A stretch of 64,000 nucleotides of DNA from Kappaphycus alvarezii (lineage: Eukaryota > Rhodophyta > Florideophyceae > Gigartinales > Solieriaceae), in contig NADL03000458.1 of NCBI GenBank assembly GCA_002205965.3, forward strand, positions 310,001-374,000, written 5' to 3'. Numbering within the stretch: position 1 is the first letter of the stretch; the number at the start of each line of letters is the position of its first letter. Positions 7,930 through 43,880 of the stretch are shown here, piece after piece. A model generated the notes under the pieces. That model did not search any database, was not told the origin of the DNA, and saw only the letters and a list, made by a program, of their open reading frames with translations. Made by a program: the position numbers and the translations under genes.

Positions 7930-7930
7930 A

Positions 7931-9833: not shown

Positions 9834-9848
9834 CACTCTCCTTCTTCA
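9834..9848 (-). promoter_or_regulatory. gypsy-1 polypurine tract
   Basis: On the - strand the sequence immediately before the 3' LTR is purine-rich (gaagaaggagagtg). That is the expected place for plus-strand priming, and it supports the LTR boundary. Confidence 0.6.
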
Positions 9849-10387: not shown

Positions 10388-10595
10388 TGACTTCTACTTA
10401 TCCACATTGAGGCAGGGTTCCAGTTGAAAATAGGTGATGTCGACAGGTGTGACAGTAACAGAGCATAAAAAGGTAGCAATTGGTGGAGTGGGTTCCATGC
10501 CGAGAAAATCAGTAACTGGCGCGATGTTGTTGCGTAATGGAAAAGGAGCTTTGTTCAGAGCACTCTGAATGATCGGAAGGAGATCGGGCTACTAC

Positions 10596-13556: not shown

Positions 13557-13561
13557 AGCTC

Positions 13562-14590: not shown

Positions 14591-14641
14591 AGTGTTGATC
14601 GAACGGAATACTGTTGAAGCGCAGTATCGCAGTGATCACTT

Positions 14642-14881
14642 TGCGCAGTTGCGGCGCGAAGGTTGTGAATCCAGAAGCGTCTGAAATTCCGATGACTCTC
14701 ATCTTTACTGAGAGGAATATTCTACTTTTAGTACTGTTGTGTGTTTCCGAAAAGGAAACGGACATGTATTTCCTAGAACAAGTGTTTCGTAATCGGTAAC
14801 TGTTACCCACGATGACGCAATCGTGGTTTTCATGGAGCTTTGGATAGCAACTTATCGGTCATGTAGGTGTGTTACCCACTA
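14642..14881 (-). repeat. gypsy-1 5' LTR
   Basis: About 240 bp, direct repeat of 9592-9833 at roughly 90% identity. On the - strand it precedes Gag. No convincing tRNA primer site is seen between it and the Gag start. Confidence 0.82.
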
Positions 14882-16730
14882 AACATTGGTTTCGTTTCCG
14901 CGAAAGAGAAGCTAAAGGTTGGTAGACAAAGCCTGATAACGGAGCAATTTTATGGACGATAGGGGCTACGAAATGAAGTAGTGCAAGATTTAAATTAGCG
15001 CAGTGATTTTTCTCAACTTCGGTCTCAAGAGGCACTATATCGCGATCTGCCTGAACAGTAATCAAATAGTCACTGACATATGATAAAAAAAGTATCACAT
15101 ATGCAAATATTAGACTTTGTACCAATTATTTGATGCGCTTTGGAAAATCATTAATTTTAAAAAACACCCCAAATATCCCCCCCAATGTTAAACTTGTGCT
15201 GCCGTCTGTAAGTTTCAGAAGCATGAAATTGCATGCCAGTCCCAGCCCTCTTGCGCTCCATGCAGCGCTGCTGTGTCAATCGTCACACGTGGGGTGAACC
15301 TGGTATATAAGAGAGGCGGAAAGTGTAAATAAAGTATAAAAGGAGAGGGTCGGAAAAAGGGTATGAAAGGAGACACCAACCTTAACGAAGTAATAAAAAA
15401 GTAAATAAAGAGAGGGGCAGAAAGTAAAAATAAAAGAAAATAAAGAATAAACAAGTTGGAATGGTAGAAGGGAGCGTGACGCCGAAAGTACAAGTAGGAT
15501 TGCACCGCAACGTCTGAAGTCACGCCAAATCTGCTGGAACCGGGACAAAAGTGCCAGACGGAAGCACATCAAATTGATGTACAAAAAAATGGTGCAACGC
15601 TGCATCCGTACCCACATTATTGAAGCAAGGGACGCATAGGAGCTGTGCAGTTGGTGAGAAGTCCATTGTTTCTGACCAAAGGGCTTCCTTCCACCCGCAA
15701 ACTTCACAGAACAGAATGTAAAAGTACCAGAGTCTGCTAACAAAGCGCTATGTTTCAGGTTTAGAGACAGATTTTTCTTTTCAGGGACAATTGATGGGTA
15801 TTTTTGTAGCATCTGATGGTTTACCGCGCAGTATTCAGATATTCGATTTTGTCATGCCAGTAACACAAGTTCTGCAAAAAAAATGAGGTATATGCATGTA
15901 AAATTTGTTCAGAATAGTATAAATCAGTAATTACTGTCCACAGAAAAGTAAAAAGCCAATGAGATTACTAAGCCGTGCCAAGTGGAAAATGTTTGAGGTA
16001 AAAAAATAGCTGCTTTTTGTACCTTAAAACATGGTAGAGGCAGCAAAAGGCCCTTCTCCGCCTTATAGGCGGAATTCCGCCCCTTCTGAACGGCTATTTT
16101 TTCTTTACCAGTTGCTATGAAGTTATTGATGTTTATTGTTTTTTGCTGTTCCAAGACTTCTCAAGATACAAAATACATCTACTGCAGTGGTATTAATACT
16201 ACAAACTACTTATTATAAGTGTGTCCGGGTGATTGAGACATGAGTGACTCAAAGATATGTAACCGGCAGAACAAAACGTTGCGAAAACGAACCAGTTTGA
16301 CTTGAAATAAGAAACATAACTGGTAACATAACCGTAATGGTATGGGGGTTGGAAATGGGTTTCTATAACTTAAATAGTTGATTAATAAGAGATATGTCCA
16401 GAAAAGGTGAGTCAAGGAGTTACCCAGAATGATTGGCCAGACTTTATATTACAGTTACAAAGAAGTAGTCATTGGACGTAAGAAGCGGAGATATTAGAAG
16501 TACCAGTCAGCGACAGTAAATTCTAAACATCATTAAAGCATCCAAGTAGATTCAATAAAATCCCAAACAGCAGTAGTTTTCGGCCGAAAACAAGCTCATG
16601 ACATCATTCCACTTTTGCACTGGACGTTATTGTCTCAAATGTCAATCGGTATATGAGAAGCATGGGAAAGTCATGCATGTAGAATGAAAAGATCTGATCG
16701 AAATGGAGAAGGAAATTTGACGACTAAAAA
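14882..16730. other. No gene recognised; purine-rich tract and palindrome
   Basis: AT-rich. 15308-15480 is strongly purine-rich on the + strand with imperfect 'aaagtaaataaagagagggg' units; its complement gives a hydrophobic open frame that I do not believe. A 14-nt perfect palindrome ggcggaattccgcc lies at 16068-16081, next to another ccgcc arm. The inverted-repeat motif at 15117-15143 is listed separately. Confidence 0.4.
15117..15143 (+). repeat. Left copy of a dispersed inverted repeat (candidate element terminus)
   Basis: Begins TTGTACCAATTATTTGATGC and continues CTTTGG. It matches the reverse complement of 36078-36104 at about 23 of 25 positions. Both copies lead inward to an AT stretch and then a caccccaa run with poly-C. 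This could be the left end of the 21-kb composite block. Confidence 0.55.
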
Positions 16731-18514
16731 GTGATAATGCAAGCACGTGGTACATGTGTGAACATAGGAGAGACGCTTGAGACGGTGGTTACAGAGTTTT
16801 CCGACATTGGGAAACTGAAAATAGCGATTTGCATTAAAACCGAAGCACCAGATGGGGAAAAAAATATTTTCATAGTTATGGAGGATGTAGGAACTTCAAA
16901 TGGTATGCGTATAACGAAATCATTTACGGGAAATGACTGGATGAACAACATTGAAGTTGACAATTTACCAAGTGTTATCGATCGTCCAGTTTCGAGGGAA
17001 TATAATTGGGAATATTTGGAACTGGAAACTATGCAAGGATCAAAAAGACTGCCCATTATGCCTGCAACAAAAATAATGATGAAACAAGCTGTATGGAGAC
17101 AGAAAAGTTACGAAGTCGACGCGATCGTATCGTGTCAGTGGAACCCAATGGAGAAAGTATGGAACTGGGACAGACACAAGGACTGATGAGACTGCCGACT
17201 GAACCAAGGGTTGCAGTTGCACATGTGAACAACCGGCCTCAAATCGAAGAGGTACTTGAAAAAAGCCCAAAAAACCAGTTCACCTCATTTCTGACGATGT
17301 GGTAGCTCGTGGTCAGTCTCTTCTGCGAGATGCATGCAGTATTTCGGCACACTCAAGAATGATGAGATACTATGATACTGAAGCTCTGAGTGTGAGTCTT
17401 GTTGCTGAGATTTTTACGCAATTCTTTAAGATATACAAAAGAACTAGGGTGGAGTCCGGTAGTAAGATACATGGCTTACAATATATAAGTCTTGTTCTAA
17501 ATAGATTGAGAGACAAGACTGTCTCCAAGTCAAAAATTGTTATGAGGAGAACTGGGTCGAGACCTTACGAAGTCATTGGGAGACGTCACTGTGTCATGAA
17601 GATCGGAAAATGAAGTAAAAATCCAAAAAAGTACATATCGCTTTGATCCTTGCTCTTCTAGAGAGCGATCCTCCTAGGATAAAAGTGGAAGAACTATTAA
17701 GAGAGTATGCCTTGAAGGGATATGGCCACATGACGTGCGTATATCTCAAACGTGAGGACCACACTTCCTGTTGTAGCCCACGAGAATCTAGTGTTTTGAA
17801 GAATGGAAATGGAGAATTTCTCGAAAAAGTAACTGTTGATCAATTTCCAACATTCATCATGGGTGAGGAAATACAAAACGGAGAAATCGTAGTATTGTTC
17901 TAGTCATTTGAGAAGGAAGAAAGTAGTGTTGTTCGACTAACTAGCAAAGACCTTTTGAAAGACCAGCTGCCCTACTAAAGCAATGGGTTTCTCGCGTCAA
18001 TCTGAAAGTGGAATATGGTATAATTCTAGGGTCGGCTATACTTGTGGAGGGCAAAATTTTCCGTTCTCTACAGACACCTTCGCGACCACTTCCCATGGAT
18101 ATTTGCCACTGCAGCTTACATTGTGATTTCAAAAGTACTTACAAGCAGGACTACGGTGACCCAAGAGATGTTGGGAAACGTGAGTATCCAGTATCTGAAT
18201 GTTATAATCACAAGATTGCATCAAAGTACAAGAAGATGAATTTCAACGGAGGAGTGCCAAAGTATATCTCGGACCTTGAAGCAGCAACAGAATTTTTCCG
18301 GCATTTCGAACATATACCGATCTCTGACCATTCAGAAGCGTCCCTTATATCTGTGAAATGGAAACCAATAAGAGCAGGTGATAAAATATGTTACAATAGA
18401 ATAAATAATCCCAGGCACATGAGGGAGCACGGAGAATTTGGAATTCGAAATCAGCGTAGTTTCTTGATGAAGAACTGGGAAGCTCTCCGACATCATGAAG
18501 TGGACAGTAAGTAG
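16731..18514 (+). pseudogene. Unrecognised degenerate protein A
   Basis: Coding-like sequence spread over several + strand frames: 16731-17186, 17006-17305, 17299-17613, 17643-17903, 18008-18514. The pieces join in order into a product of roughly 550-600 residues with balanced composition (for example LVAEIFTQFFKIYKRTRVES, IKVEELLREYALKGYGHMTC). I find no domain I can name. It is on the same strand as, and upstream of, the KDZ transposase, and may be an accessory gene of the same element or an unrelated relic. Confidence 0.4.
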
Positions 18515-20919
18515 CCAGATGATATATGCTCTCTATCCTCCCATCAAGTACACTACAAAACAGCTAACAGGAGTAGGTAAAGTTGAGAAATAGTCATGAT
18601 CGATGACTCAGAGTCACAGTAGATGGTGGGGACGGTAATTTCCCAAGCGTTATAAGCAAAATATGCTCACCTGAGGAACCCCTGTGAATAGAAGATTGTG
18701 GAGCAAGAAACTGATGGGGCACAAATATCGCCAACTCTACGCTTATGATTTCAATGTATCCAGGACTAAATGTCACAATAGATAAAATGTGAAGTAAGAT
18801 AGACGGAATATTAAGATTCCACAGAAATGTGTTTAGAGTAATTGAAGATGCTCCTGGCGGAATCCTTTCAACATGGAAGGAGAACTGGAAAAGTACATAG
18901 ACTAAGCCCGAGGCTCTTTGCACATTACTGAAGAGTACTGAGGTAATAGAAGAGTGATAGATAATATAATGGAGTTCCAGTGAAGTCAGTATTCGGTATT
19001 CAGACTATACAGTTTTCTCAACCATTTATACACAATCAATGTAGTGACAGAAAGGTACATAGAATATATAAAACAGACATACTGTGTGACCTTGAGACTA
19101 TAAGAACAGCTATATAACGTACTATAAAGAAGAGAATTAAATTGAATATTAGATTCAATTATCTGACTTTACGTTTTTGACTGTATGGTTCAGCTATGTC
19201 ATAATATTCAAAGGTTATTCAAATTTGTGCAGGCACCATCTAATTCAAACTACGTGGCATCATTTGTGAACAATAATATAGGAATATATGACGAAGTCAA
19301 CCAATGACTTTGATATTCCAATCATTCTGACAGGTTCGATTAACATCTCTGAAGATTACGAGAATTCTTTTTCATTGAAACCTTCCATTTAGGTTCACCT
19401 GACTCACTTGATTCCTAGACGGAAACCGTCGGAATTCTTCAGCGGACATTCCGAGCAAACGTAGTTGAGCTTCTGGTTCGTGGCGCGAGCACCTTCTCTA
19501 CAACGGTCAAAATACGGAACTATACAAAAAAAAATCAAGGATACAGTATGTTTGCAGCTGGGGCTAGTATCAAATATATAATATATAAATGAAAAAGTAT
19601 TGCATACTATACAGTACTACTGTGTAATGCTTGAAACTTTTCTTTATTCTTTCCTTCTTGCCTAGGCCAAGCGGAAACTTTTTCTCCCCTTTTTCCCACG
19701 TTCGCTCGACACGGTACAGCATATATACTGTACTGTGACGGGTATACAGTACAGTACCTAACCCTGGATTAGCTGGGGGAGATACAATACAGTATCTCCC
19801 CAGCTCAGTAAGTGAGCTCGCACAGCATACATACTGCATATCATCAGTTATGTATGCAGAGGGACTTTTGAATTCATTGATACTGCTACATGTGGTGGGC
19901 AATGCTGCGAATGGATGATAAAATCCATGCATTCATTCAGTGTTTCCTTGACTGTCCTCCCTGGACAAAGCTGTCGACGCGAACAAAATGTGGTCGAAAG
20001 CGGGAATGAAACATGAAAATGTATCGGAGGCTTTCAGAGTACTCAATAAGCCCGAAAATGAATGCACAAAACACGCCTATTTCATTGATAGGGGTACTAT
20101 TCAATATACGGGGCGAGAAATAGACTGTTGAGGAGGGGACATTAATGGCTCGAGTGACGAGATTTTTGCCATCGAAGCGCAGAAACCTCAATCTCTTTCG
20201 TTCCGTCCTGAATAAATGGGCATGGTCAGAAGATTTTCGATTCGGGTTACGTCTGATAAGAAATTTGGACCAGAAGAGGAGAGTATTGGAGAGGTCGTTA
20301 ATGGAAGCTACACAGGAATAAGAAGAAATGTGGGAAGGCTAGATCCATGCATTCAAAACCGAGTTGGAGCCCGACATGGAAGAGGTGGAAAAAAGTGTGG
20401 ATCTAATAACTTACAATGTCGCCTGGAAATACCGAAATGGGTGAAGAAGATGTCTACTGTTGCTCTTCTAAGCAATTAAGGAGGAATTTTAGACAGTTTC
20501 ATGACCAGGATGAAGCAATTGGATAGAGAATTTCACGACTGTGCGTTACGAGAAGGAAATGCGTGGGTTTGCGACGATGAAGGGGAAGTTTGAAGATTTT
20601 CTGTCTGACCGACCTATTCATAACGCAAGGAAGCTATTCGAATTGATTCCAAACATTCCTTATCTTTGCTTGGTAACGAAATTGAACTTCTCCCAAGTTG
20701 GCTCGAATGGTTACGAAATGGATAAACACGTCGTCGTGTTTTGATTAGGTGGGGATGGAAAATCTCGATGCTCCTCTTTGGGAAGGACGAAGTACATGAT
20801 TATGGAATCTGAAATTAAATTTATCCATACGAGAATGCTGAATGAAATAAGGTGATATTTGATTTTTATTATCACTATCACTTGAGCAAGTCGGTAAAAT
20901 TTTAAGTCATGCTTACCGC
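18515..20919. other. No gene recognised; AT-rich with short open frames
   Basis: AT-rich DNA between protein A and the KDZ gene. 19.73-19.80 kb has several TACTGTA/TACAGTA-type motifs. The + strand open frames 20216-20479 and 20541-20744 may be the decayed N-terminus of the KDZ gene (basic, Gly/Arg-rich), but no motif proves it. Confidence 0.35.
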
Positions 20920-22515
20920 TTGGGCCGCGAAGTATCTATTAAACAATTCGAAGAAAGGTGTCCAGCGACGGTGAAGATCCACGAAGATTCGATCGTAGTA
21001 TTGTCATTGATTCGCAAGTGTGAGGTGCAGAACAGCATATGCTTCATTTCGATCCGGATTATTCGGAAAAGTGGGACATTCGTATGTTCTTTCTGCGATA
21101 CAGGGAGTAGTGGAGAATGGGAGCCCATCGTGTATCTAAGAGGAGACGACAAGACGTGGAAAGTAGTTTCCTGCCAACAGAAACCACAGAAACGGTACAG
21201 GACCCTTTGCCAGCCCAAAATGGGGACGTGGAAGGCAGTGAAGATTATGAACATAAACAGGAAACTATTGTCCTGAACTGTATTAAAGATGATATTAAAG
21301 GAAACAGTGATCCAAACATCCGTGTTGACAGTAAGACATTAGGGAAAAATCCTTCCTGTCCTTTTCTCCAGTCAGTTGCTTCAGATCCATTGATGTTGAC
21401 TCAGCCGTATGTGGAAGTTCTTGTAACAAGCATCAATACAGAATATATGCCTCCTCTGTGTGTCCAGTTTGTGGAAATGACCAGAGTCATACGATAAAGG
21501 GAGTTACTGAATATGGGGTACTTCTGTGCAGCTTGCGTCCTTGTAATATGCAAATTGAAAACTACACATGTTCTAACTGTTAAATGTTCATAGAACCAGA
21601 GGGCAGGGAACAGTGTATACTATTTCTATCATCAAAAAGTGCAGTAACCCACGTTATGTGGAGATATCAGTTGACAGGAGTTGTTCTCGGGAACGGGACA
21701 GTATCTGGTAGACTGAAGGAAGATCACTCCCAAACCGTGTCTCTCTAATACAATTTGAGGTTCTACCGAGGTGCCCTTCGTGCAGGTCTGTGAAAATCAT
21801 GCACCAGATGTTTAGTCTGATGCTGAAATTAATGACGAAACAACCTGATGCTGAATTGCTCAACTGTCTCAAATGCACTTCTGGGAAAAGAATGGTCGCA
21901 ATTTGTGTTGTTGGTATCCAGCAGGGATATCTGAAGAAGTACTATAAAGGCTTCTATACGCTTTCGCAATGTTGTACTCAATCTACGCAGAGAATACAGT
22001 GTTACTTTGGCAGTACATACCGTCCGAACACGATAGTGCTTAGGAGGGGAAAAACTGGCTTAATGTTTGGGAAAATTGTAGGTGGGAAAAATCTGTCTGA
22101 AAGTCGAAAGAACGTCAGAGACTTCTCCGCTTGCCTCACGTTGATTCAATCTACGAATGGTCCTGATCATTTTTGCCCTGGATCAGTGTGTGGCCGTACT
22201 CCAGGTGATTCTATGAATGATTTGGGGAAAAACAGCTACCTTCGTGTGCTAGATGGCTTATTTACATCATTTTTTGACAAAGAATCCATTGAAAGTAGGA
22301 TCCTGCATCCTCTTCATCGCTTTGTAGCCAGTCTATCTGTCAACGATACCTCATATCTTGAAGAAATGTGTGGGAAAAGTTATCCACCATGCCAATCAAT
22401 CAATGCAGCAATACTCAATGGAATTAGAAAGCTGCGAAAGCAATCTTCAAGGATCATTGAAGATGGTGTGTGTTGGAATTCAATTATTAGAAATTCATTG
22501 CCTCATAATTCATGA
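20920..22515 (+). pseudogene. KDZ-type transposase, N-terminal and CXXC-rich part
   Basis: Several + frames joined by single-base shifts. Cysteine pairs appear in order: CSFC, CPVCG at 21461-21475, YTCSNC at ~21563-21580, CPSC at ~21772-21783 and CLKC. They resemble the CxC zinc clusters that precede the catalytic part of Kyakuja-Dileera-Zisupton (KDZ) transposases. The 241-residue frame 21790-22515 follows, with no motif of its own. The catalytic C-terminus resumes at ~27.5 kb, so the gene is split by the 22.9-27.4 kb insertion. The name rests mainly on the C-terminal half. Confidence 0.55.
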
Positions 22516-24417
22516 CAAGAACTTCTCGAGTTTCTGATAATTTTTATCCAGGGACCAATCACTTATTTCATTCGGAAAACAGAAATTGCTTCATTAAGTT
22601 GTTTGGGAGACATATGCAAGAAGAAAGATAAGGGAAATCAGTGTCTCGTTGAAGTTATCTGAAACACAGAATTGTTATCAGCATCCTTCAAATATGGGCA
22701 AACAAATCTGCAGTTAAGTTCTCGCGCCATTCATGTGGCATTGTATGAAATTGTGGAAATCGAAAGGGGAAACATAAAAGTTGGGGAGAATATCAGGAAA
22801 AATGTTGGCAGCCTGTTCGTGGTAAATGCATCATTCGTTTCGTCTTTCTATGCATATTATGATGCCCACTGCGAATGAGCTCAGTTATATCATATTTCGT
22901 TGTTTGGAAAAGCATGCACTACGGAACTCTGATACAACTCATAAGAGCAAAGTAAGGGCCGAAAGTATCGTGCATAAGTGAAGTGTAGTGCAATGACCGG
23001 TACAGTCTTTAGATGGGACGAATGATCCATTTTACTTGTCGAATTTCGACACTGTGTCTACAGTAGATCATTCTGTCAGGATGAGATAGCAACGACCTCC
23101 AGTCGGGGCTTGCCATGGATCGGTATGGGTCCTGATATTTATTTTAGCTTACAGTAGGTATTAGTCTAACACGTGCCCTAACTACGGCGGCAGCTAGCAC
23201 TTCCACTAAGTCTAACTTAGTATTTATTACCGGGCATCTTGTAGCGCCCCAAGTAACAGCTACCAAAGGTTTGGCTCTGGAAGCACCTCCCAACTTCGCG
23301 TCCCCGCCTACCTTTGCGTGGAACTCACATATCTGCGGCTATAGCTACCTCTATACCCTTTGGTCCCCATTTGTAGCCTGTGGCCCGATCACCCGTGGAG
23401 CTTCGCCCCTTTTATTCTTCATCCCTCTGTTGTTCCATGCGCGTGGGCGCCCGTTAGTCCACATCGGCGGACTGTAGCCGAAACCCGTGACGCCTCGCGT
23501 CGTCCCCTGCGGGAGGATACAAATCCCCTTTAGAGCCTCGCTCGCCCGTCTTAGCGCTACGCGCGACACCTTCGCTCGGCCTCGGCCGCTCCTCTCTGTC
23601 CATTCTTTTTGTTTCCTTCGCCCTGTTAGTCTTCCGGGCTACCGTTTCCTTAGGTGGCGTCGCCATCTATCCTATTTCTGTTAAATACCCGTTGTTTCCA
23701 TTACATTGTCGATGTGCCATTGTTCTAGACACTCCTGTGTCCTACTCTCACTCTATGAGTCTTTCCACCTCTGACTTGCCAAGTCTCTACCTGTCAGGCA
23801 CTGAGCTACTGCCCTTCACGGGGCTCAAAGGGAAAGCGGGTCTGCCGGACGCCTGGTAGTTGCACAAACATCATCTCATACCCCTCTTATGGCCGTATGC
23901 ATTTTCCGTTGTTTCACTTTCAGGGCTGGTTATGTGCGTTGCACTAAATGAAGAACTGGAAAGAGCCATGCAGACGGAAACTTACTTCCCAGGACGTCCT
24001 CAGGTTCGACCACCACCATTTGACATGAACGAAGTTATTAGACCCTCTCTCATACATGAGGGACACTCCGAATGAGCCAATGTATTCCTGGCAACGAGGG
24101 TTGCCCGTGAAATACTGTTGATCATTTCGCAATGATCCATAAAAAAACAAAAGAAAAATTAAGTAGAGTATGACAATAATATCGTACAGTGACTAAAAGA
24201 GAAACTTACAATCAAGTCAACTAGAAATGAGAGCAAAATTTAAGAGCAAGCCCGCTCTTTTTGTAAACGACCTAGTCATTGACATAAAACTCCATCTCTT
24301 CACACTGTACTTCACAAATACGCGCATAAAATACCTTCAATCTTAGAAACACCGTTCAGTCCTCTTGCAGTACCATCTGGTTGCCCCTCCCCTTCCTTCC
24401 CCGACCTCTCAACTAAA
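22516..24417. other. Left part of the insertion in the KDZ gene; GC-rich block of unknown origin
   Basis: A short + frame at 22672-22878 may still be KDZ sequence. 23220-23870 is clearly more GC-rich than its surroundings. On the - strand it encodes MATPPKETVARKTNRAKETK and onward (ATG at 23664-23666, open to 23454), a basic Gag-like or nucleic-acid-binding N-terminus. Just upstream on that strand (23760-23826) lies a tRNA-D-arm-like sequence (gtagctcagt then ggtagag). A truncated retroelement leader plus start of Gag is possible but unproven. Confidence 0.35.
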
Positions 24418-25727
24418 ATGCTCTCCACACAGCAAGCAGCAATTCCCGAAACACTCCCTCTTATCCCTACCGAGCAACAAGCAGCGAATGCGCTGCATAT
24501 TCTCGCAGACGCCGCGGTAGAGCGAGAAGCGGAGCTACAGCAGTTTGATGGCAGCGACAGCGAAATTTCTACTGACGATGAAACTTCATCCCCTTCCCAG
24601 TGTTCGATATCTTTTATGAAGTGGGTGGCGGGAAAGCAGTGCATGACATGACCAACTTCGATGCTTCAGAGTTTAGCACTATTTGGGGAAGTGTAGAGCC
24701 AATTATCAGTGAGCGCTACAACGTAGGGCCTGGTAGAAAGGGGAATTATGGGGGTAAGGATATGTTGTTTATGCTTTTAACGACATTGAAAGTAGGAGGG
24801 CAGTGGGAAATTCTAGCGAAAATATTCAGCCTGAAAGGTCCAACGTTCGAGAAAATGATGACGAAATTCATGGAATTGCTTAGTGACCCTCTTTACGAAG
24901 CAGTCGTAGAACGTAATGGTACCCTTTTCCCTTTTGGCCAGATGCTTCAAGACGGCAATAAGTTTAAGTACTATCCTACCGCTAGGTACGCTACTGATGT
25001 AACTTTTCAACAAGCGAATAGGCCCAGTGGAAATATGCAGGAAGGGAAGGTTTATTTTAGCGGGAAACATAAGCTTTATGGGTTTAAGGTCGAAGTTTCG
25101 GTTCTACCAAATGGACAGGCTCTGAATTGCTCGACGCACTACCCTGGATCGGTGGCCGATTTGGAAATCTTTCAGCGGAATATTGACTTCCACAGGGGCG
25201 CCCTCAAGAAGAAAATTTCCGAGAGAGAAATTGCCGACATGGGTCCCCTCTGTGGCGAGTTCCCAAACTATTGGAGTGTCTTATTGGATAAAGGGTACCA
25301 AGGAGCGATAGAATTGACCAGGGCATTGATTCCGAAAAAGAAGCCGCGTAATGGAAATTTAAATCGTGAAGAGGAGACCGCAAACAAAAAAATGTCGTCT
25401 GATCGTATTATCGTGGAAAATTTTTTCGGGCGGTTGTGCTCACTGTGGGCGGTAGTTGGGAGTAAGTGGCGCTGAAAAGAAGACCGCTATGATTGCGTTT
25501 TTCGTCTTTGTACAGCGCTGTCAAATATTCACATTCAGATGCATCCTCTGCGCTTCGAAGACAGCACTCAGCAAAAGCGGTTTAAAAAGAGGCTGTATTC
25601 CATTGGCGAGGATATTGCCACTAGGCGCCGCAACGTTCAGGAGCGCTATCGCAACAAGCGGCGCAGGCGGATTGAATTGCAGTTTCGTAATGTAGAGTTT
25701 CACGGTAGAGAGTTTGAGTCTGATTAA
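24418..25727 (+). pseudogene. PIF/Harbinger-type DDE transposase (one frameshift, one stop)
   Basis: About 436 codons. The acidic N-terminus (24418 to ~24600) is in one frame and the catalytic part in the next (24600-25475); a single missing base near 24575-24600 explains the shift. Catalytic triad of the DDE_Tnp_4 type: Asp in YATDVTFQQANRPSG, Asp in VLLDKGYQGA, Glu in SDRIIVENFFGRL. A TGA at 25473-25475 sits where Trp is expected (WR*KEDRYD); the same frame then stays open to 25727 with a basic tail (RKRLYS..RYRNKRRRRIE). Terminal inverted repeats were not found. The right end is only ~13 bp from the non-LTR fragment. Confidence 0.83.
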
Positions 25728-25739
25728 AGAGGTTAATGA

Positions 25740-27260
25740 ACTTTATTGTTTTTGGAATCGGCCTTCGCAAATGCGAAAGGATACGGAGCGGGAGGAGGTA
25801 GAAAAGATCCGCGAGTTTTGACACCACAGAGCTGGAGGCAAGGAAAGCAGCCGCACTGACAGAGGTGGCGGACGTTAATCCGGCGCCGGGGGTACAACGA
25901 CGACAGCAACAGGGGAAGCGGGGGCATCCCTTGAAGACAGAATGAAAACGAGTAACGAAATTCCGCACCGTGAGTGTGGGGGAAGGAGCGCGGTGGCTGG
26001 CAGCGAAAGATGTAAGAAGGCGGAAATTTTTAGGACCACTCTCTCCTAGCGTCCCATAAATATCGATTCCGACAGGCACCAGTAAGACATCATTGGAGTT
26101 ACAGTAGGCGCCGTATCGCAAGACCTCGGCGTGCTCGGCGAGAGACGCAGCGGCCCATAGAGAGGAGGTGCTGTGCGAAAGGCGCTAGGGGACGACAGGG
26201 TGGGCCACAGTACCATCCAATGCGATATCCCTGGCGGCTTGAGCGTAGGTGGCAGGCATGGACAGGCCCATGCGTAAGGAATGCATGGGGTGGGAGGGGT
26301 TAGACGGGAGCGGGTGTTCAACGAGCGCAGTGATGCCGAGTTCTTTGCAGTAGCGATGGAGGGCATTGTGAAACGCATTGTGACGCCGGGTTTGCCCGTC
26401 ATCAAACTCGCGGGTCAGAGCGTGTTTGCCCATCGGGTCCAGAACTGGAGCAACGTCGGAGGAACGGCGATAGCAGACCGAGAACCACGATTGGCACGGG
26501 AAAAGTGGAATACCGAGACGACGGGCAACAGCAATTTTCTAAGCATGGTATGCCAAATAAGTGTCGAGGGCGGGTGGGGAAGAGCAGTGAAAAGAGAACA
26601 GGAGGATTTGGTTTCACCCAGAGGGGACGAGCCCGCTCCGCGGCGTAAGCGCGGAAAAACATGTGATCACAGGCCGAAGCGTGGAGGTCAGGCACCTACA
26701 TCTCGGACCGCAATTACAAGACGTGGTTGCAGTTCCAATGCAGGGTACCACTGTTTCCTCCTGCTTAAAACTGCTGTAAGAGGGGGATGCACAACGCCCG
26801 TGGATGAGTTCAGCGACCACGCGTTATGCCGTGCCTATGGCTCCACACACGGGTGGCGGTATGACTTGCAAATACTTCTGTTTGCTGCAGATCTCTCCAA
26901 CGCTGCCCAACATCCTGTCCTTGAGCCGCCACAACGCGGCCATGCAGTTCGCCCGGACATAAATGAGCTTGGAGAGAACGGGGCCACAGACTACCACGAC
27001 GGAACCGTCATCCACTCCTTGACCCCGCTCTTCTCCCTTCCCTGGCACAGAAGTGATGTAAGCGAGAGGATATCTGGGCATCCTCGGTTGTCTGAAGTGC
27101 GGTGAAAATGCGATCGAACGAGTCAATAACATAGGAGTCGGAGGCAATGTCGGACCCAAGAACCTTGAAGCCAGACGGAGCAGAAAAGGGGCAAGGGAGA
27201 CGGAGGGGCGGAAGAGGCGAAGATATAGCGTATGCGTGAGTCTTGCTCAGGCTGTGCGTG
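25740..27260 (-). pseudogene. Non-LTR retrotransposon C-terminal region (relic)
   Basis: Reading from right to left: LGIPLFPC, then a zinc-knuckle-like and His-rich motif (LDPMGKHALTRE, QTRRHNAFHNALHRYC). An endonuclease-like stretch follows (IALDGTVAHPVV), then a conserved tail (RYGAYCNSNDVLLVPVGI, YGTLGE). This order (CCHC/RHN motif, restriction-like endonuclease, tail) is typical of the part after the RT in a family of algal and protist non-LTR elements. At least three frames are used. An AATAAA on the - strand at ~25745 could be its polyadenylation signal. Confidence 0.6.
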
Positions 27261-27531
27261 AATTGGCCAGTTCAAAAGTCAGAAAACCCCACCGGCGTCG
27301 GATGTGTCCAGGTTATGAACGTTGCAGAGTTAACGTCTGACTAATTATTTTATTAAATTTTAATGATGTGCTTATTCTGAAATGGCCACATATTATTTAA
27401 TGGCTGGCGGTGTACTATAAGAGGATACAGTAATTTCCGCGAGGTACCATATCAATCCCCATGGATTCGATGATATATATTCACTGTAAGTCAATCATCA
27501 TTTATCAAATGATTGAGATATCACCCAGTCT

Positions 27532-28145
27532 TTGGTGGAGAGACCTATTGATAAGGAGAGTACTGAACTTGGACCATGTTCAAAAAGCTATTCTCATAAA
27601 CTGATTTCTTTCACTCCTGGTGCGTTGACTGTCAGTTGTTCTTGCTCCAATCCGATGTGTTTGGGTTTCAATGTTCTTTTTCGAAAGGAGGGCCCAAGAG
27701 CTGTCATGAACAGGCTGATATCGGTTTTTCCAGAGCTTTCTCAATACATTATATACGACTTCGCGTGTGGTATATATGCCTCAAGTATTAATAGTTTGTG
27801 GTGGGCTTTGAGTAAGAGTATTGTTGTTCTGATCGTTTCCATATGTGCAACCATAGTTTTTGTTCTCCAACCTTTAAGCCCGCAGCGCATGTTGATTTGG
27901 ACAAGAGAAATACAATTGGACATGAGCAGCGTAATAGAGGAATTAAGTTACTCTGTCGTTCACTTCGGAACTGTGGGTTAGAACTATATATTAAACTATT
28001 AGTCTATCACACAGTAGTTGGGAACATAATGGCCAAGGCGAAAGGAACAGAAATTTTCGCCAACAACAAGGATTCCCATTTCGAGTATGATTTGAAATGG
28101 TGTTTTTTAACTGCCTCTGGAAAATATGCTGCTGCTTTTAATTGA
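27532..28145 (+). pseudogene. KDZ-type transposase, catalytic C-terminal part
   Basis: Two overlapping + frames. The first reads FTPGALTVSCSCSNPMCLGF, then RKEGPRAVMNRL and IIYDFACGIYASS. The second continues CNHSFCSPTF and IGHEQRNRGIK. The order PG..C...GF, E.PR, YD.AC, H..C, EQ.N is the KDZ signature, including the catalytic Asp in YDFAC and the Glu in EQ. The frame change is at ~27840. It would cut and paste the host element. Its N-terminal half is at 20.9-22.5 kb. Confidence 0.72.
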
Positions 28146-28499
28146 TGGCTTTACCGTAGTATTCCGTATTCTGAAATATGAAGAGTACGAAAATACGATA
28201 ACCATATAATCGGGACATTAGTGACTCTATTTTTTCTTATATAATATATTATCCAGATACTATCAAATTGCAGTAAACAAATTACAGAAGAAATGGCGGG
28301 GAAGAGCGAAATAATACATTCAATAGAGATGAAACAGCCTCGAAATGTGATATTCGCCCTAATTGCAAAAACATGGATTTGAATTTGAATTCTCACTTTC
28401 GTTACACTAGCTATAAGTGAATTGAGGGTTTTATAAAAGGGGGTAGGTTAACAATATCCGAATAATCAGGTGTCATATTAGATAGTAAACTTGCAACCG
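28146..28499. other. AT-rich spacer between KDZ and PIF1 genes
   Basis: About 350 bp, AT-rich, no open frame of note and no terminator or splice signal that I can support. Confidence 0.4.
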
Positions 28500-29790
28500 C
28501 GGATATGGCACCAGAATTAACAGCAGGTGTCGCAGCAGGAGACGATATAACTGAACAGAAGGCTGTGTCTTTGGCTTCGAGCGGGAGATCCGTAGCAATT
28601 TTCGATGGGTCGGGCACTGGAAAAAACATGTATTGAAAAAAATATTATGTCATACGCGCGGAAAGTTTGGCAAGGGTTCGGTTGCAGCCTGTGCGCTCTC
28701 ACACTCAGCAGCAGAAAGAACTGAGGTGCAGACGATTCATTCATTATTTGGAGGACCACTACACTGGAAAATCTCAAAAGAGGTTATTCCCGATCACATG
28801 CAAAGACAAGACGCGATTGTCTCATCTTCGGAAAATGAAGTTTCTGGCAATAGACGAAGGTACTTTTCTGACTTCTGGTATATTGGAATCTATCGACTGG
28901 AATCTTCGAAAGCTTGCAGTATCGGATCGGTATGCTGTCCTATCTTTCGGTGGAAGACAAATTGTATGCACAGGTGATCCATTTCAACTTGAAGCCATTC
29001 AACAAAGGGATGCACTACCAGAGCAAAATCGCCAGCTCTTTTCTGCGAAGGCATGTTACTTGACATTTGGTAGTTTTGGAAGTGGAGTGGCCGTGACTCT
29101 GGCTACCATCTATCGACAAAAAGGTGAAACTCAATTTTTTCGGATTTTGAAACGGTTTCGTCTTGGTTCTATAACCGAAAATGATATAAGAATTTTGAAT
29201 AATACTAGCTTGAAAACCCAAGATCCTTTCTAGCAGTCCACCATGCTTTTTCTATATCGTGAAGATGTGCGACGTACGAACGAAAAATTCATATAAAAAC
29301 TTCCTGGAGTTCTCCACAAGTGCTTTGCTCACGATGAAATCAATAGATCATCACAGTCGCTTAGATGGAGGCTCGACCAGGTCTCTGAAAAATACATCAC
29401 AGTCAAAGTTGGATCATTCATTCTTCTCACTAGAGAGATTGGGAAGAACTCTCCAGGAACCCAATGCGTAGTCAAGGGCGTTATTATTCAACATCGGATG
29501 CCGATTTCTGTCATGGTTCTGGCTGTGACTGACGGTGGATGTGAAAGAAATTTACAATTATCCCCATTCACACATTCGCTTAGAAATCGCAATGCAGAAG
29601 TGATCGCCAGACGGATACAATTTCTGTTTATAAGTGGGTACGCAAAAACCATTCAAAAATGCCATGGCTTGACATTGGCAAGAATTGCAATCTATTTCTC
29701 AATGGTAGCCTTTTGGAGGCCGCCAGGTATGGTTTATGTGGTACTATCGCGGTGTACATCATTTTCGGGCCTATGGGTCTAGGGACTTCG
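28500..29790 (+). pseudogene. PIF1-family DNA helicase (several frameshifts)
   Basis: Helicase motifs in order across frames: Walker A-like FDGSGTGKN (~28600-28625, Ser/Thr after Lys lost); motif Ia ACALSHSAAE and TIHSLFGG (~28690-28755); Walker B FLAIDEGTF (~28845); FGGRQIVCTGDPFQLE (~28950-28990); TIYRQ (~29105). Near the end come SGYAKTIQKCHGLTLARI and YVVLSRCTSFSGL (29640-29780), the PIF1 motifs V-VI. The normal lengths between motifs are kept. It follows the KDZ gene on the same strand by ~350 bp. It could belong to the same element or be the helicase half of a decayed Helitron, but no HUH Rep motif was seen nearby. Confidence 0.78.
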
Positions 29791-29962
29791 GAGAGATCAT
29801 GTTTCGGTGAGTCCCAATGCGTTTCAATTGTTGAAAAGAATCAGCAGATGGCAGGAAGTAACTACACGTAGAGTTGTTGGTAAGCGAGTTCTGTTAGAGA
29901 GCAACTCAAATTCTCAGGAAGCTAGTCAATCGAACCGTTAGTGCCAACGACAATACTCATGG

Positions 29963-31824
29963 TTAAGACACTAATGTCCCACTCACCTTACTGAAATTGT
30001 AATAGACAGGCATGGATAGTAGTTGGATACTCAGATAATTACGTGAATCGAGCGAAATGATTCTTTTTAAACACTGTCTATACCAGGTCTGTAGAAAAGT
30101 ATCTTTTTCCATAGTAATAACCCGGGGGTAACCTGTCATATGAATCAATTTCCCGGGTGCAACAGTATTGCATGAAACAGAAGAAATAATAAGTGCTGTA
30201 TATAAGCTTTTTATTGAATTAGGAAAGTTTGTTCTGGTCGGGGCAGTAGTGTCCCAAACTGCAAAAACATGAAGATATGCAATCAAAGTGTGATTTAATC
30301 GTGATACTTTTATTGATTCAGACAAAGAGCGACTACCATTACTATTGTTCATCGTCCGAGTCCGGGATGATAATGAAGTCATCCGATCGGATCTTTTTGC
30401 ACGGTGGATGACGTGCGCTTCCACCAGAATCTTCCGAAGGTTTCTCTGATTCAGAATCTTCCCTTCTAGGTACGAGAAGCATGGTGACATCGTAATTAAA
30501 TACCTGATCTGTCACAGGCACTTATCCTTCCCAGAACTGAGGAGTCGCAATGTCAACTATATTATCGCGCATGTCAACCATAGTGGGAATTTCAGAAGTT
30601 TGATAAACCTTCGGAGTTACTTTTTTTTGAGTTCCCACTTTGTCTCATCAGCAGAGAGGTCGGTAGCCAGTGAACCTAAACGCTTAACTTCTTGTTCGTA
30701 GAAATTAAAGGCTTTTGGATCAGTTGCAGCAAAACATTGCACTGATTATACCGCTTCAAGAGATTCTTCAGGTATAGAAACAAAAGGAAATTTCCTCGCT
30801 AAGCTCGATTCATGATACACAGACCATAACAGAATTCTTGCTTCCGGGAATCGAATCAAAAGGCAGGTTGACAGTAAAGCAACTATCTCCTTTGAAAATG
30901 AGAACATCTCCGACAATCATTCGGTAACTGCGTTCCCCTCATAATATAATTTTTACAACTTCAAACATTGTAGCGGACCATTTTGGACATTTTTTAATAT
31001 ATGCAAATCATGATTACCGGCAACAGAGATTCAGGCATAGTGGAACTCACATTTATACCTACCAGAACTACTATTTGCGGAACCCAGATACATGAATACC
31101 TTGAATGAGGCTCGCGCCTTTTCACGGAAGTAAGATTTGGAAAACCCGTATTGTCCACCTAGGAACAACTGCGGGAAAAACGTACGATAGGCCTGACTAT
31201 TTGCTTGACCCAGCAGCTCAATGATCGTACCCATAAAATGGGAAATGCAGTTCTCTCCGGCGGAATAGACTTCAGTCTTACAAGAGGGGCATCTTTCTTC
31301 AACTCCAATTGTGAGTAGAATTACTAATCGTAGGCAAGAGTCAGGTTGACAGCATTAGTCCAATCATCGAGAACAAAATATCAAGCAAATCCTTTCTTTC
31401 TGCTCGAAAAAAGCTTCAATTCCACGCATCGTAGTCCAACCACACCCTCCTGTATCAACTCATTTACCCATTGTGTTTTCGAGCATGACGAATATACCTT
31501 GAACCCTACATTGCTTCTTTTTTCGACTCCCAACGATCGTAACTCACACCGGAAAACTGACACAGTCATTAACAGACCAAATTCCAGCGAGTTGATGTAC
31601 GACGTAGTTGAATGAAACAGGTTGCAAGACGACAAGACTCAGGCTACAGAGGCCGTTTCTGGAGTACTTATGTCGTGTTCTTCGATACTGTATGTCAGAG
31701 GGCGAATAATTTGGCAGAATAAGTGATGAGTCTCTAATGTCCCGACCGCAATGAATAAGAGGTTCGACGGGTAAACATAGTGTTGAAATTGCAGTTGAAA
31801 ATTTCGTAAGAATCTAGCTGACAA
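29963..31824 (-). pseudogene. Unrecognised degenerate protein B
   Basis: Minus-strand coding-like sequence in several frames (31824-31639, 31635-31381, a stretch with CPSCKTEVYSAGENC, 31234-31031, then 30490-29963). The pieces are protein-like (LLFIAVGTLETHHLFCQIIR, FFPQLFLGGQYGFSKSYFRE). The CPSC...C could be one half of a RING-like zinc site. No family recognised. It is convergent with the PIF1 helicase gene and could be another accessory gene of the KDZ element. Confidence 0.4.
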
Positions 31825-32640
31825 TGGAAGTTTAGATTCTTTTTTGAATTCTAATACTGATTGAATAAATTAACCCAAGCATCAGACTTATGATAAGTTA
31901 TGTTTTTACAATAACTTCACTAGAAAAAATAGTAATTATTGGTTATTTTCAAAGTTTCAGTAACGTTTTGGAATTTTGAATTCCGTTACCCGACAGAGGT
32001 ACCTTTGCACAAAGTCCAAAATACACCGCGTAAGCGTTACCAATTCTTGCCATTACTGAAGATTTCAATAACCAGCACTTGAATCCAAAAAATACTCTGC
32101 CCACTTCGGCACAAATCGACTTCAAATTTTATGTTGTACAGGCGTTAGAGGGGTTCCTAAACATATACAATCCATGATGAAAATTTTCTGGCCTGTAACA
32201 CACCTCAACATAAATTTTTATGTTCAAATAGTAGCACATACAGTAGTACTTAGTTTCAATAAATCGTTGTGCCTGGCGTCTTTCACCATTCTGTCTCCAA
32301 ATCTATCAAGACCATCTACCGTCGTCAACATACCTTCACCACAACACCACGCCTTAATCTAAATCCTGCAAATACCAATATTGGATCTCCCCCCTACAAA
32401 AAAGAGGACGCTCGTGTCCTTTTTCCGATTCTAGGTCATAAGGCCTCCCCACAACCCGAATAATATCAAGTCCTTCCGAATAACATACCCGCTACTGAAA
32501 GTGAGACATGTGTGTCCTATTCCTCTTTACATCTTAGTCGTAGCCTACCGTCCATGTTCACTTCCCAAGATATCGATCCACCACTGTCTTTAGGTCATTC
32601 ATGTCTCGTGGCCCGTGTTGTCAAAAATGCAACTTAGGAT
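31825..32640. other. No gene recognised
   Basis: Short + frames only (32174-32362, 32269-32463). No motif. The last part may include the lost upstream half of the tyrosine recombinase that follows. Confidence 0.35.
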
Positions 32641-33077
32641 AAATTGGCTTCAGCGTAGGTTAAGACGTCTCAGATGTGGATATATCCATTTGTGCCCTCT
32701 CGGCGCTGTAAAGGTGGTTTTGTGTGCTTCAGGCGCACAGTGTTTATCAGGGAAACCTCTTTTTACAGAATGTGTCGAACAAGCTGCAAGGTGGAATGTC
32801 TTTCGACGGCCTCTCGTATAGAAGGACGCTAGGAGAGATTGGTGCGGTATGTGGAATTAACGGCCTTTCCGGGCACAGTGCCAGGCGAGTAAGTATAGGG
32901 TATCAATACTTTGTGCTACGCAGAGACCTGTACTATCTCTACAGAGGATTCTCGTGGGACAGTCTTGCGGAGCTGTTACGGTATATTGGAATAGAGGATG
33001 AAAAAAACTCCTACGCACCCCTCGGGTTCTCCTCGCGCGGCATGAATGAGCCCTCGGTTGGGATGCTTCATTCGTGA
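32641..33077 (+). pseudogene. Tyrosine recombinase C-terminal fragment (Crypton- or DIRS-like)
   Basis: Main frame 32724-33077 with preceding homology in the same frame after stops. Motifs: ICALSAL then RWF (the 'CP-AL-W' block before the catalytic core), GNLFLQ, INGLSGHSARRVS (HxxR-type box) and FSWDSLAELLRYIG (Trp and the Tyr-nucleophile position). The N-terminus and the first catalytic Arg are missing. Unlike DIRS-1 there is no RT beside it, so a Crypton-type DNA transposon is slightly favoured. Confidence 0.5.
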
Positions 33078-33399
33078 TTTTACGGCTCGGGACAGAACGG
33101 AAATCGCTATGGACAACCCAATGATTTCGCTGGGGCGTTAGTGGATCCGTCGGCGAACCGTACCGGTGCCCGAAAAGCAGCGGCGGGTGATTGAGGGGAT
33201 AAATTAATGAATGAGGCGAGTAGTGGCAGTCGATGGGGTTCCCGGAGTGTGGATGGGCTTACGACAGTGTAGGCAGAGGACCGGCGGGGATTCGAGCTAG
33301 GCCGTGGGGACTTTGTAGCTTACAAACCATTTTCTGTCAGGGACTCGATAAGGGAGGGAGGTATGGGTATCGAAGAAAGCGGTAGCAGGGCTGTGGCGG

Positions 33400-35236
33400 A
33401 AGGCGCGGCCCCGGATGCGGAGCCAGATATCCTTTCCGCTGTGCTAGGAACGGGAAGTTTTGGCCTCCCAGTCCGCGTCACGCCATTGGAGAAGGGCGCG
33501 GGCGTCTTGATGCACCCTTGTTGGTTTGCCTTGGGTGTTTTGGGGGGATACAGCAAGCGCAATGGGGTCAAGATCTCTCAGGGAGACAGGATCGGGTGGC
33601 CGGCGATACGGAGGGCGAAGGCATTAAGGAGCGGGCGGGCTTGACTCAGAAAAAACGCAGGTCTCCAAGGCACAACGATTGCAGGAGGTCCGCAGGCCGG
33701 GGGGGAAGTATCGGGCGGTGCATTCAGGGGCAGGGGCAGCGTCTATGATACTGGCAGCGGCGATGCTGGGGAGGAGGGGGCCGATTTCGAAAAAGCCATG
33801 TATATCAAGTTTGATCTGGAGGCAGGTTTGGGTCCAGGCCGGGCAAGTGAGGGGGAAGTCTTTGAGTTTCTTGTAGAACTCCCGTCACAGATAGTCAAAA
33901 ACGGTCGCAGGATCCAATCTGTGGTGGGGGTACGAGAAGCGGAATTCGTGTAGCATCTGGAAAGGGAAAGCATGGAGGCGATGCATCTGAAAGCGGGCTG
34001 GTGGGTCTCGGACAAGGTGGAGCTCCTCAAGGGTCTAACGGCAGGACGCGATCTTCGTGCGGAGGAACTCTTGTGTGTCTTCGGAGTTGCCGATCGGGGC
34101 ACCAAGGAGGTTGAAACTATGGGGTGACCATTGCTGCATTAGGAAGTGTGAGAGAACCTCCTCGCGTGTGAGGGGTGTGTGGGGCCAGTAGGTGCGCTTC
34201 TTGCACATGTTGAGGTGGAGCCAAGGGGAGGGCCGTGTGGCAAAAGTCTGGTGAGGGCTCGGCGGAGGGCGCGAAGTGTGCCGACGAGTGTGCCATCGTC
34301 TGCATACCATTGATTGAGCATGAGGTCCGGGTCCTCCGCAAGCTTCAGTTAAAAGGAATGGCTGGTGAGGGAAGACATGAGCATCTGGCCTGATCACCTT
34401 GTTCGGTGCCCCGCACTCTTAGAATCATGGTACGCTCACGGTTTGGGACGGAAAACCGGGGGTGCCCCGCACTCTTAGAATCATGGTCCGCTCACGGTTT
34501 GGGACGGAAAACCGGGGGCTGCGAGCGGACATAGACCATATTGATGAACCGCGCAAGCGTGGGCGTGCGGGTAGGTAAGAGGTTGAGCAGCGACTGCCTT
34601 TCCAAGCAGTTGAACGAGGCAGAGTTATCAATAAGGACGATGGCGGCCTCGGGGGCGCGGAAATGGCGGAGATTCCGCGTATCGTGCACAACGGCATCCA
34701 TGCCGGGATCCCGGCAGTATTCCCATTTTCCGTCTCTTAGGGTGCTAGGAAGTCTCTTGCGTCATCAATGGCGTGAGGAAGGAGAGTTTTTGTAACCATG
34801 TGGTGAAGAACAGTCCCGAAAGCTAGGTACGGTTCCTTCCAGAGCTGCATGGGGGCAAGTGTAACGACAGCGACTAGGGGGAGGACTTCGTTGGGGAGAT
34901 AATCGCGGGAGGTGCGATTGTCGAGTTGGGTGAGCGTGCGAGGCCGGTGACACTTGCATCGGGAGTGATCTTGGTCTTGAACAATACGTGAAAGCAGCGG
35001 AAGGGCTTGTGGTCCAGCCCGACACTGCTGTCACGAAAGAATCCTCGTGCGACGCAGGCGACGGCCTCCTCATTAGCATAAGGAGGGGGCGGGAGGGAAG
35101 ACTCACGGAGCGGGGCCATGAGCTGGGAAGGGGTTGGGTGGGGGGAGCGCAGAGCTTGAATGGTTTCGCGCTGTTCATTCATGTGCGAGTAGGGCGCAGT
35201 GTCGGGAACGCGTAGCCTTACTGTTACGTCCATCAC
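33400..35236 (-). pseudogene. Non-LTR retrotransposon reverse transcriptase (relic)
   Basis: Minus strand, at least four frames. In order: finger region (PYLAFGTVLHHMVTK); palm motif A region (APEAAIVLIDNSASFN, LARFINMVYVRSQP); GTEQGD; then QWYADDGTLVG with the YADD box at ~34305. Thumb: FNLLGAPIGN. After it comes sequence ending near 33.4 kb. It is related in type to the C-terminal fragment at 25.7-27.2 kb but has no recognisable endonuclease part. A 56-bp tandem duplication (34405-34516) breaks the frame between motif A and GTEQGD. Confidence 0.7.
34405..34516. repeat. 56-bp tandem duplication within the non-LTR RT
   Basis: Two adjacent 56-bp copies starting ggtgccccgcactcttag (34405 and 34461), differing at one base (tacg against tccg). 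56 is not divisible by three, so the duplication shifts the RT frame. The near identity shows it is recent relative to the decay around it, or an assembly artefact. Confidence 0.85.
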
Positions 35237-36010
35237 TTCTTGGTAGGAGACAATCGTGTACCTCTACACTGGAAATGAGTAATGAGTAAATCTACAGTGC
35301 TTCACAGACTTCCATGCTCAACGTGAAAAATTTCAGGTATTTCAAGGCCTGAATGAAGCCTGATCAAACGCAATCTGAACATCATCATTTCAGGTTCTGG
35401 ATCTTTCAAGAAACTTCCGTGAACATACAGCTCAAATAGAACTTATATATTGTAAGCCTCTGAAAGCAAGCAGTGCAAAGCTCAAACTGACAACGCTTGA
35501 ACTTCCATTCTTTCATTCGTCGCTAGCGGTAACTTGTCCAATTAATTTTGCCCAATTGTTTATCTGCGTAGTAATTTCGAATAAAGTTAGCACTGTGCTG
35601 GGTTACAGTGCTTGTTCCTTGAGTTTTGGCAGGATGTGTTCTCGGCACATCTTTGCCATCTTATGAGCTCCTCCAAGCACATCCTACTTCACATCCTAGA
35701 ACCTCAAAAGTATTATTTTCATTGGATGGGATCTTATTTACACTGCAGGGCTAAATCTTTTGCCCTTTTTATATTTTGTCCTAGATTCACAATGCTTTTT
35801 GTCCCCGGACCGAAGTGTGTCCCCCACATCTGAGATGCAAGAATCCGCATCTCTTATTTCACCTATTGTGGGAGTTAATCAACCCGATTTCATGCGTCCG
35901 TGAGCAATACAGTACAGTACATCTTTGAATCATATATTTTCAGTTGATAGGCCGTGAAATGCATATTTAATTAAAAGAAAAGTAAATATGAAGTATTGCA
36001 CTTACAGGGG
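35237..36010. other. No gene recognised
   Basis: AT-rich DNA with only short frames. A tacagtacagtac run occurs at ~35911-35922. Nothing identifiable. Confidence 0.4.
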
Positions 36011-36052
36011 GAAAAATTGGGGTGTTTTAATGAAAAATTGGGGTGTTTAAAT
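36011..36052. repeat. 21-bp tandem repeat, two copies
   Basis: gaaaaattggggtgtttt followed by aat or aaat, twice in a row (36011-36031 and 36032-36052). Its complement (caccccaattttt) resembles the caccccaa run inside the left inverted repeat at ~15.17 kb, so it may be part of the same element end. Confidence 0.7.
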
Positions 36053-36077
36053 GATTTAAAATAGGTTAGCCTATGTT

Positions 36078-36104
36078 TCAAAGAGCATCAAATAATTTGT
36101 ACAA
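36078..36104 (-). repeat. Right copy of the dispersed inverted repeat (candidate element terminus)
   Basis: Reverse complement reads TTGTACAAATTATTTGATGC then CTTTGAAAC and matches 15117-15143. It lies between the 21-bp tandem repeat and the Harbinger relic, whose 3' end it appears to truncate. Confidence 0.55.
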
Positions 36105-36135
36105 GTGGTCGGTATGGGGTAAGCAAGAAACAGAA

Positions 36136-36741
36136 TTAATCAGGTTCAAAGTGTCTAGAAGGCTGGCTTGATTCCAGCCAGCAGGCAAACCGCATTGGAC
36201 GGTTACATGCGGCAAATCTATTCGTCAGAATGCAGAACTCTACATTATAGCTGTGCAGTTTGTGTTTCGCATAAAATGTTGTTGGCTTCCTGCAGATAGC
36301 CACTGGGACGATACGACTGCTGAAAAGCCACATCGGTGGCATGCTGGGCGCAACTCAACCTCTGAAAAATAATCTCTCTTTTAAAAAGGTCCTCCGTCGT
36401 AAATATCCTTCTATAGTTTTCAACAGTTCCAGTGGAGATTGTTTCTGAATTGATCTTCTCGAACATATTCATGAATACTTCAAACGAGGACCATCTTTGG
36501 CCGAAGCTATTTCCGAGAAAGTCCAAGACCCCGCTATTTTTCAGAAATACAAAGCATCATAACCAGTGCAAATCTTCCGCATATCGGAAACTATCTGCCT
36601 CGTCCTAAGTTGTAGTTGAATGTTATTAATGTTCTGAACATATCGTATGAGTTCTGCGGATATGCAAGATAAAACTTGGTAAGATGATTTATAGCTTTGG
36701 AACCTCCATCTTCGTAGCATCTGCCCAACTGGAGGTTCCAC
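36136..36741 (-). pseudogene. Second Harbinger-type transposase relic
   Basis: Minus strand, three frames. VGQML near 36730; then HATDVAFQQSYRPSGYLQEA (~36310-36370), which parallels ATDVTFQQANRPSGNMQE in the 24.6-kb copy, keeping the first catalytic Asp; then KHKLHSYNVEF, parallel to KHKLYGFKVEV. It ends shortly after (~36140), before the second Asp and the Glu. Clearly diverged from the 24.6-kb copy, so an independent, older insertion. Confidence 0.72.
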
Positions 36742-43350: not shown

Positions 43351-43369
43351 CGACACACTGAGGTTAAAA

Positions 43370-43861: not shown

Positions 43862-43880
43862 GATGTATAATAGGGAAATA

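Follow-up and report, generated by a model that had tools for sequence, protein, structure and literature searches.

A decayed, right-truncated copy of a probable large DNA transposon carrying KDZ-like transposase and PIF1 helicase genes in the red alga Kappaphycus alvarezii

The sequence analysed here, referred to as the window, is a stretch of 64,000 nucleotides from the red alga Kappaphycus alvarezii (assembly GCA_002205965.3, contig NADL03000458.1, positions 310,001 to 374,000). It contains the remains of what is probably a large DNA-transposon-like element, with genes for a protein A, a transposase resembling those of the KDZ type, a PIF1-type helicase and, on the opposite strand, a protein B (Table 1). 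All four genes are disrupted by stops or frameshifts. They had been listed in a preliminary description of the window, and each was located and found to have homologues elsewhere; the transposase gave no Pfam match and is retained as KDZ-like only. Protein A has no Pfam match and protein B none above cut-off. The open reading frame (ORF) of the helicase matches Pfam PIF1 with an E-value of 1.1e-5, 0.3 bit under the curated cut-off, and is 36.5% identical to residues 4-453 of a 502-residue homologue. Since a profile made from three sequences, including that of the window, matches solved structures of PIF1 helicases with E-values down to 1.7e-50, assignment of the gene to PIF1, a family of 5'-3' helicases, is secure by sequence comparison.

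The transposase gene encodes a cysteine-rich N-terminus and the blocks VCVDGIQ, YDFACG and HEQRN, all conserved across copies. It ends about 0.43 kb upstream of the PIF1 gene, as judged from the matches of P0002, a database relative of the catalytic part, at 27661-27822 and 27822-28115. The gene is split by insertions of 0.97 and 3.5 kb, both extra with respect to a related copy in C645 and each bounded by sharp junctions and accompanied by short duplications; the ORF at 27517 begins in nested insertion sequence. The suggestion that smaller elements had later invaded the element found support in a relative devoid of both insertions. What had escaped listing was a PIF/Harbinger-type transposase (DDE_Tnp_4, Pfam E 7.9e-20) encoded at 24999-25526, inside the 3.5-kb insertion and hence inside the KDZ-like gene. 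The segment 24037-25892 matches two other genomic loci (L036 and L045) with 84% identity. A further Harbinger-related fragment, 32% identical to the nested transposase over 87 residues, lies on the minus strand at 36284-36544, just beyond the second of two retroelement tails described below.

The borders of the element were deduced from related copies. The closest of these, C645 (loci L049 and L032), is colinear with window positions 15295-32672 at 86-89% identity. Searching the alga's own genome (336 Mb, 884 contigs) with the left end yielded three further matches, one in C645 and two in C511, all starting at 15295-15296. The left flanks of the window, C645 and C511 copies are unrelated to each other; the two C511 copies have one common flank and are probably products of a duplication, so that the left end is seen at three insertion sites in all. 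Because copies start at the same point on unrelated flanks, the sequences support 15295 well as the left terminus. Queried with the right end, the genome returned these three copies once more, with matches starting precisely at 32672. This position was at first accepted as the right terminus, given these three matches and the divergence of the window from C645 at that point, and was dropped because the 40 bases that follow are common to C645 and C511. With Ulp1-like coding sequence following in C645, the shared bases indicate that it is the window copy that is broken at 32672. The following 1 kb of C645 (locus L032), to which nothing in the window corresponds, codes for an Ulp1-like protease and matches Peptidase_C48 with an E-value of 0.014, under cut-off; no Ulp1-type gene was found in the window copy. 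In one subfamily (two copies, L029 and L031) the right end reads ...GGTTCA; its complementarity to the TGAACC of the left end suggests short terminal inverted repeats. The element is large, measuring 12.77 kb in C645 between the two compared points (12.8 kb up to the shared point, with the Ulp1-like sequence beyond), and other copies carry A, PIF1 and B as accessory genes. The same two points are separated by 6.08 kb in the C511 copies, from which no KDZ match was obtained, as expected for internally deleted copies moved in trans. A tyrosine-recombinase-like ORF at 32712-33074, previously listed between the proposed ends, lies outside the element; it has no Pfam match and was assigned by eye, from a motif.

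Very different borders had been proposed in the preliminary description, namely those of a composite transposon of about 21 kb bounded by inverted copies of a 26-bp motif. The motif copies do exist: 15117-15143 and 36078-36104 are inverted and identical at 24 of 27 positions, the alignment of 15117-15148 with 36104-36073 reaches 87.5% identity (28/32; E 0.002 in a self-BLAST of the 64 kb), and the same CACCCCAA and poly-C tail lies on the inner side of each. However, C645 shares 15295-32672 and not the motifs lying outside, and none of the motif matches listed, from 40 of 58 candidates scored, is near the C645 ends. Furthermore, a search of the genome for additional copies showed the motif to mark a small, unrelated repeat, an outcome that the preliminary description had itself named as refuting. 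With the left motif, 41 matches were listed, 30 of which span merely 31-38 bases and 37 of which begin at window position 15114-15117. With the right end as query, 855 candidates emerged at first look; the 40 that were scored and listed comprise the window's own copy and 39 matches of 89-93% identity over about 80 bases. Twenty of these 39 copies were examined together with some 1.5 kb of flanking sequence in either direction. All 20 have one common 3' end (minor variants of the consensus ...AAACACCCCAATTTTTCCCCC) followed by unrelated sequence, whereas homology on the 5' side begins at many points between about -2 and about -700, or still further out. Flanks are common to three pairs (L009/L010, L021/L022 and L024/L028), which reduces the 20 copies to 17 distinct sites. 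This pattern points to a 5'-truncated retroelement of the LINE or SINE type (long or short interspersed element); no reverse transcriptase was found in the roughly 1.45 kb upstream of the repeat in L015, L026 and L027, which share merely some 0.7 kb there, so that the class is deduced from the truncation pattern alone. The single 3' end and the variable 5' truncation imply that the presumed terminal repeats are independent insertions of a truncated retroelement, unrelated to each other. The 26-bp motif was thus rejected as a terminal repeat, and, as far as copies were read, a composite transposon spanning 15117-36104 can be considered extremely improbable. The case shows that two unrelated retroelement tails can mimic a plausible pair of inverted repeats.

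The association between the transposase and PIF1 genes was analysed at other positions of the genome. P0002 produced 45 matches, grouped by hand into 30 loci including the window; the best-scoring 20 of the 29 loci outside the window were taken as test loci and about 10 kb was read at each. A PIF1 gene is present in 14 of them. It lies 366-470 bp downstream on the same strand in eight (L032, L033, L034, L038, L040, L043, L044 and L046), about 3 kb downstream in four (L030, L039, L041 and L042) and upstream in divergent orientation in two (L029 and L031). Copies form subfamilies with approximately 76-95% identity within and far greater divergence between them; the eight closely spaced loci represent four subfamilies and the 14 PIF1-bearing loci about eight. 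Ulp1-like sequence is found downstream in four of the 20 loci (L032, L033, L034 and L044), the protease at L034 matching Peptidase_C48 with an E-value of 5.8e-9. Outside this assembly, P0002 (a 191-residue transposase fragment) and P0004 (a 502-residue PIF1) each originate from an NCBI contig of 9,277 bp; the equal size suggests that they are presumably encoded on the same contig. As a separate observation, the KDZ-like matches at L048 (C586:620009) and at C691:284508 have identical query range, identity and frame length, and are perhaps a recent duplicate pair.

The repetition of the gene set in other copies supports the earlier proposal of a single kind of element comprising the KDZ-like transposase, PIF1 and the accessory proteins A and B. 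Together with the occurrence at multiple loci, the common left terminus, the nested insertions missing from a relative, the shortened copies without catalytic domain and the decay, all seen directly, it suggests that window 15295-32672 stems, with good probability, from a large DNA-transposon-like element and is a pseudogenised copy truncated at its right end. The gene order of the element would be A (+), KDZ-like transposase (+), PIF1 helicase (+), B (-) and Ulp1-type protease (+), the last being missing here.

Several results weigh against this interpretation, beginning with the linkage itself. KDZ and PIF1 genes in unrelated contexts, named in the preliminary description as a refuting outcome, were not what the 14 loci showed; no PIF1 was found within the approximately 10 kb read at the other six (L035, L036, L037, L045, L047 and L048). 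Gene order varies as well, PIF1 being divergent upstream in L029 and L031, and protein A lying convergent downstream in L029, L031 and L040. These six loci, and a region full of nested elements, are what one might expect if the two genes had become adjacent merely through transposon nesting in a repeat-rich genome. Nesting would not readily account for near-constant spacing and orientation in eight of the 20 loci and four subfamilies, nor for the transposase and PIF1 pair on NCBI contigs of equal size. Moreover, 27 control loci (83 kb) contained no match to KDZ, PIF1, A or B, and five matches to a reverse-transcriptase-like fragment included among the queries; having been chosen non-randomly, for a retroelement repeat, and being shorter (about 3 kb each) than the test loci, they constitute a rough control. 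On balance, chance nesting appears very unlikely.

A second group of adverse results concerns the identity of the transposase. Pfam searches produced no match, whether with the pieces of the window gene (E up to 10), including the N-terminal part at 20863-22512, or with six transposase ORFs of better copies (E up to 1), and thus did not place the protein in KDZ by profile; the N-terminal part of L044 gave just an E-value of 0.099 to RYYR-CCHC. A profile search with eight catalytic-domain sequences returned nothing at E 0.1, its length range leaving out even the relatives P0001-P0003, and KDZ alignment scans of viral contigs and genome contigs found no relative. The predicted fold was uninformative (predicted local distance difference test score, pLDDT, 39). 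Given the lack of a Pfam match and the empty profile search, the protein is named KDZ-like and not filed as KDZ. The missing Pfam match could also mean that the transposase represents a separate, undescribed D-D-E lineage resembling KDZ in motifs alone, and the finding of just three database relatives of the catalytic part within the length range searched points the same way. Against this stand the cysteine-rich N-terminus and the succession of the VCVDGIQ, YDFACG and HEQRN blocks, an arrangement that appears to be that of KDZ-type transposases. A separate lineage is possible, if on the unlikely side.

The remaining adverse results relate to the copies. The L033 ORF in the Ulp1 region has no Peptidase_C48 match. 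At the copy ends compared, no convincing target site duplication of the whole element was seen, and no complete copy with both termini was obtained. Of 29 comparisons within subfamilies, 23 gave a ratio of non-synonymous to synonymous substitution rates (dN/dS) of 0.6-1.2, the full range being 0.39-2.04. This gives little sign of selection since these copies diverged, and neither supports nor excludes that the genes were functional when the element spread.

Table 1. Features of the transposon-like element and of the flanking repeat copies in the window
Feature	Position	Strand	Basis or remark
Left terminus of the element, TGAACCTGGTA... (TGAACC...), well supported	15295..15305	+	Three sites with unrelated flanks
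Protein A, broken ORFs	16728..18511	+	Homologues adjoin the transposase in 7 of 20 loci
N-terminal part of KDZ-like transposase, decayed; cysteine-rich region and proposed first catalytic Asp	20514..22512	+	ORF reading; comparison with other copies
Nested 0.97-kb insertion	22984..23948		Short inverted ends TGTAGTGCAA / TTGCACTAAA; apparent TGAAG duplication; missing in C645
Nested 3.5-kb insertion, possibly itself composite	24040..27545	+	Apparent TAT/TATT duplication; missing in C645
Catalytic C-terminal part of KDZ-like transposase, YDFACG ... HEQRN	27517..28142	+	Frameshift near 27820
PIF1-type helicase, decayed	28544..29881	+	Pfam PIF1; homologue; profile against structures
Protein B, two broken ORFs	29966..31354	-	5 of 20 loci have homologues
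Right limit of homology, where the window copy is broken; not an element terminus	32672..32673		Relatives continue towards an Ulp1-type protease gene
5'-truncated dispersed-repeat copy (retroelement-type 3' end), former left inverted repeat	15114..15185	+	Outside the transposon; genome matches
Second dispersed-repeat copy, former right inverted repeat	36011..36261	-	Outside the transposon; genome matches

The rest of the window holds other features. The sole host-like gene seen, at 293-2426 on the plus strand, is in pieces that carry TPR repeats and Tic22 domains (plastid import); the Tic22 gene fits a plastid-bearing host. A DIRS-like element with a reverse transcriptase (E 1.8e-21) occupies 5145-7977 on the minus strand and also has a weak match, under cut-off, to Dam methyltransferase. 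Pairs of direct repeats resembling long terminal repeats delimit 9592-14884 (repeats 89% identical), 37487-44318 (82%) and 49839-57139 (93%), the first enclosing reverse transcriptase and RNase H sequences on the minus strand. At 61608-63683, also on the minus strand, an ORF of 692 residues combines Gypsy-type reverse transcriptase, RNase H and integrase. Segments 4440-5321 and 57211-58030, some 52 kb apart, show long inverted similarity (68-77%) and are possibly two copies of one element. A tandem array of 24-50-bp repeats extends over 58800-59411. Rfam and ARAGORN searches of the window found nothing.

If the transposon-like element once functioned as its gene content suggests, the KDZ-like protein would be a D-D-E transposase for which the TGAACC ends serve as recognition sites in cut-and-paste movement of the element. 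PIF1 could assist in processing or replicating the long DNA once excised, or in repair of the donor site, and SUMO marks on host factors may be the target of the Ulp1-type protease. A recurrent transposase-PIF1-Ulp1 set across divergent subfamilies, if real, would mean that a giant D-D-E-type element brings along its own DNA-processing helper. One could go further and place these elements in a eukaryotic DNA transposon lineage of their own, at superfamily level, in which a D-D-E transposase, its own PIF1 and Ulp1 form a fixed set of partners with a helicase-driven transposition step unknown for cut-and-paste elements; we consider this extension rather doubtful.

In eukaryotic mobile elements, PIF1 helicases are known mainly in Helitrons, which carry a PIF1-family helicase fused to a Rep nuclease. 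The presence of a PIF1-family helicase is thus a likeness, and the profile described above also matches the Helraiser helicase (7lcc, E 5.5e-21), as it should if the locus were a Helitron or other rolling-circle element with PIF1 as the active helicase and the KDZ-like gene as a passenger. Here, however, the helicase has a gene of its own next to a D-D-E-like gene, and cellular PIF1 (E 1.7e-50) scores better than Helraiser. No Rep/HUH nuclease domain was detected in the three plus-strand frames of 15000-30399 or in the minus-strand frames of 25500-29699 and 32673-36000. Since the loci were chosen by their transposase, its presence at each is no evidence for or against a Helitron. Such an origin seems very unlikely.

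With KDZ transposons the element has in common giant size, a complex transposase, accessory genes, nested insertions and pseudogenised copies; it differs from them in having no profile-level match. According to PMC12477816, KDZ elements reach 30.3 kb in Ectocarpus, a 31.7-kb active KDZ element is cited for Chlamydomonas, and giant elements contain nested insertions and often pseudogenised transposases; PIF1 is not mentioned in its main text. Among open-licence PMC papers, none was found that combines Kyakuja with PIF1 or Zisupton with Ulp1. Target site duplications of 8 bp are given for Zisupton and Dileera in PMC12730594. Relatives of the element may already be catalogued among the 1,181 Chondrus crispus entries of Repbase 2015 (PMC4455052). 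Finally, the giant EnSpm elements of red algae are likewise large DNA transposons with several accessory genes, according to PMC12477816 (citing Petroll et al. 2025), whereas the termini given for EnSpm in PMC12730594, 5'-CAC..GTG-3', differ from the TGAACC left end of the element described here.

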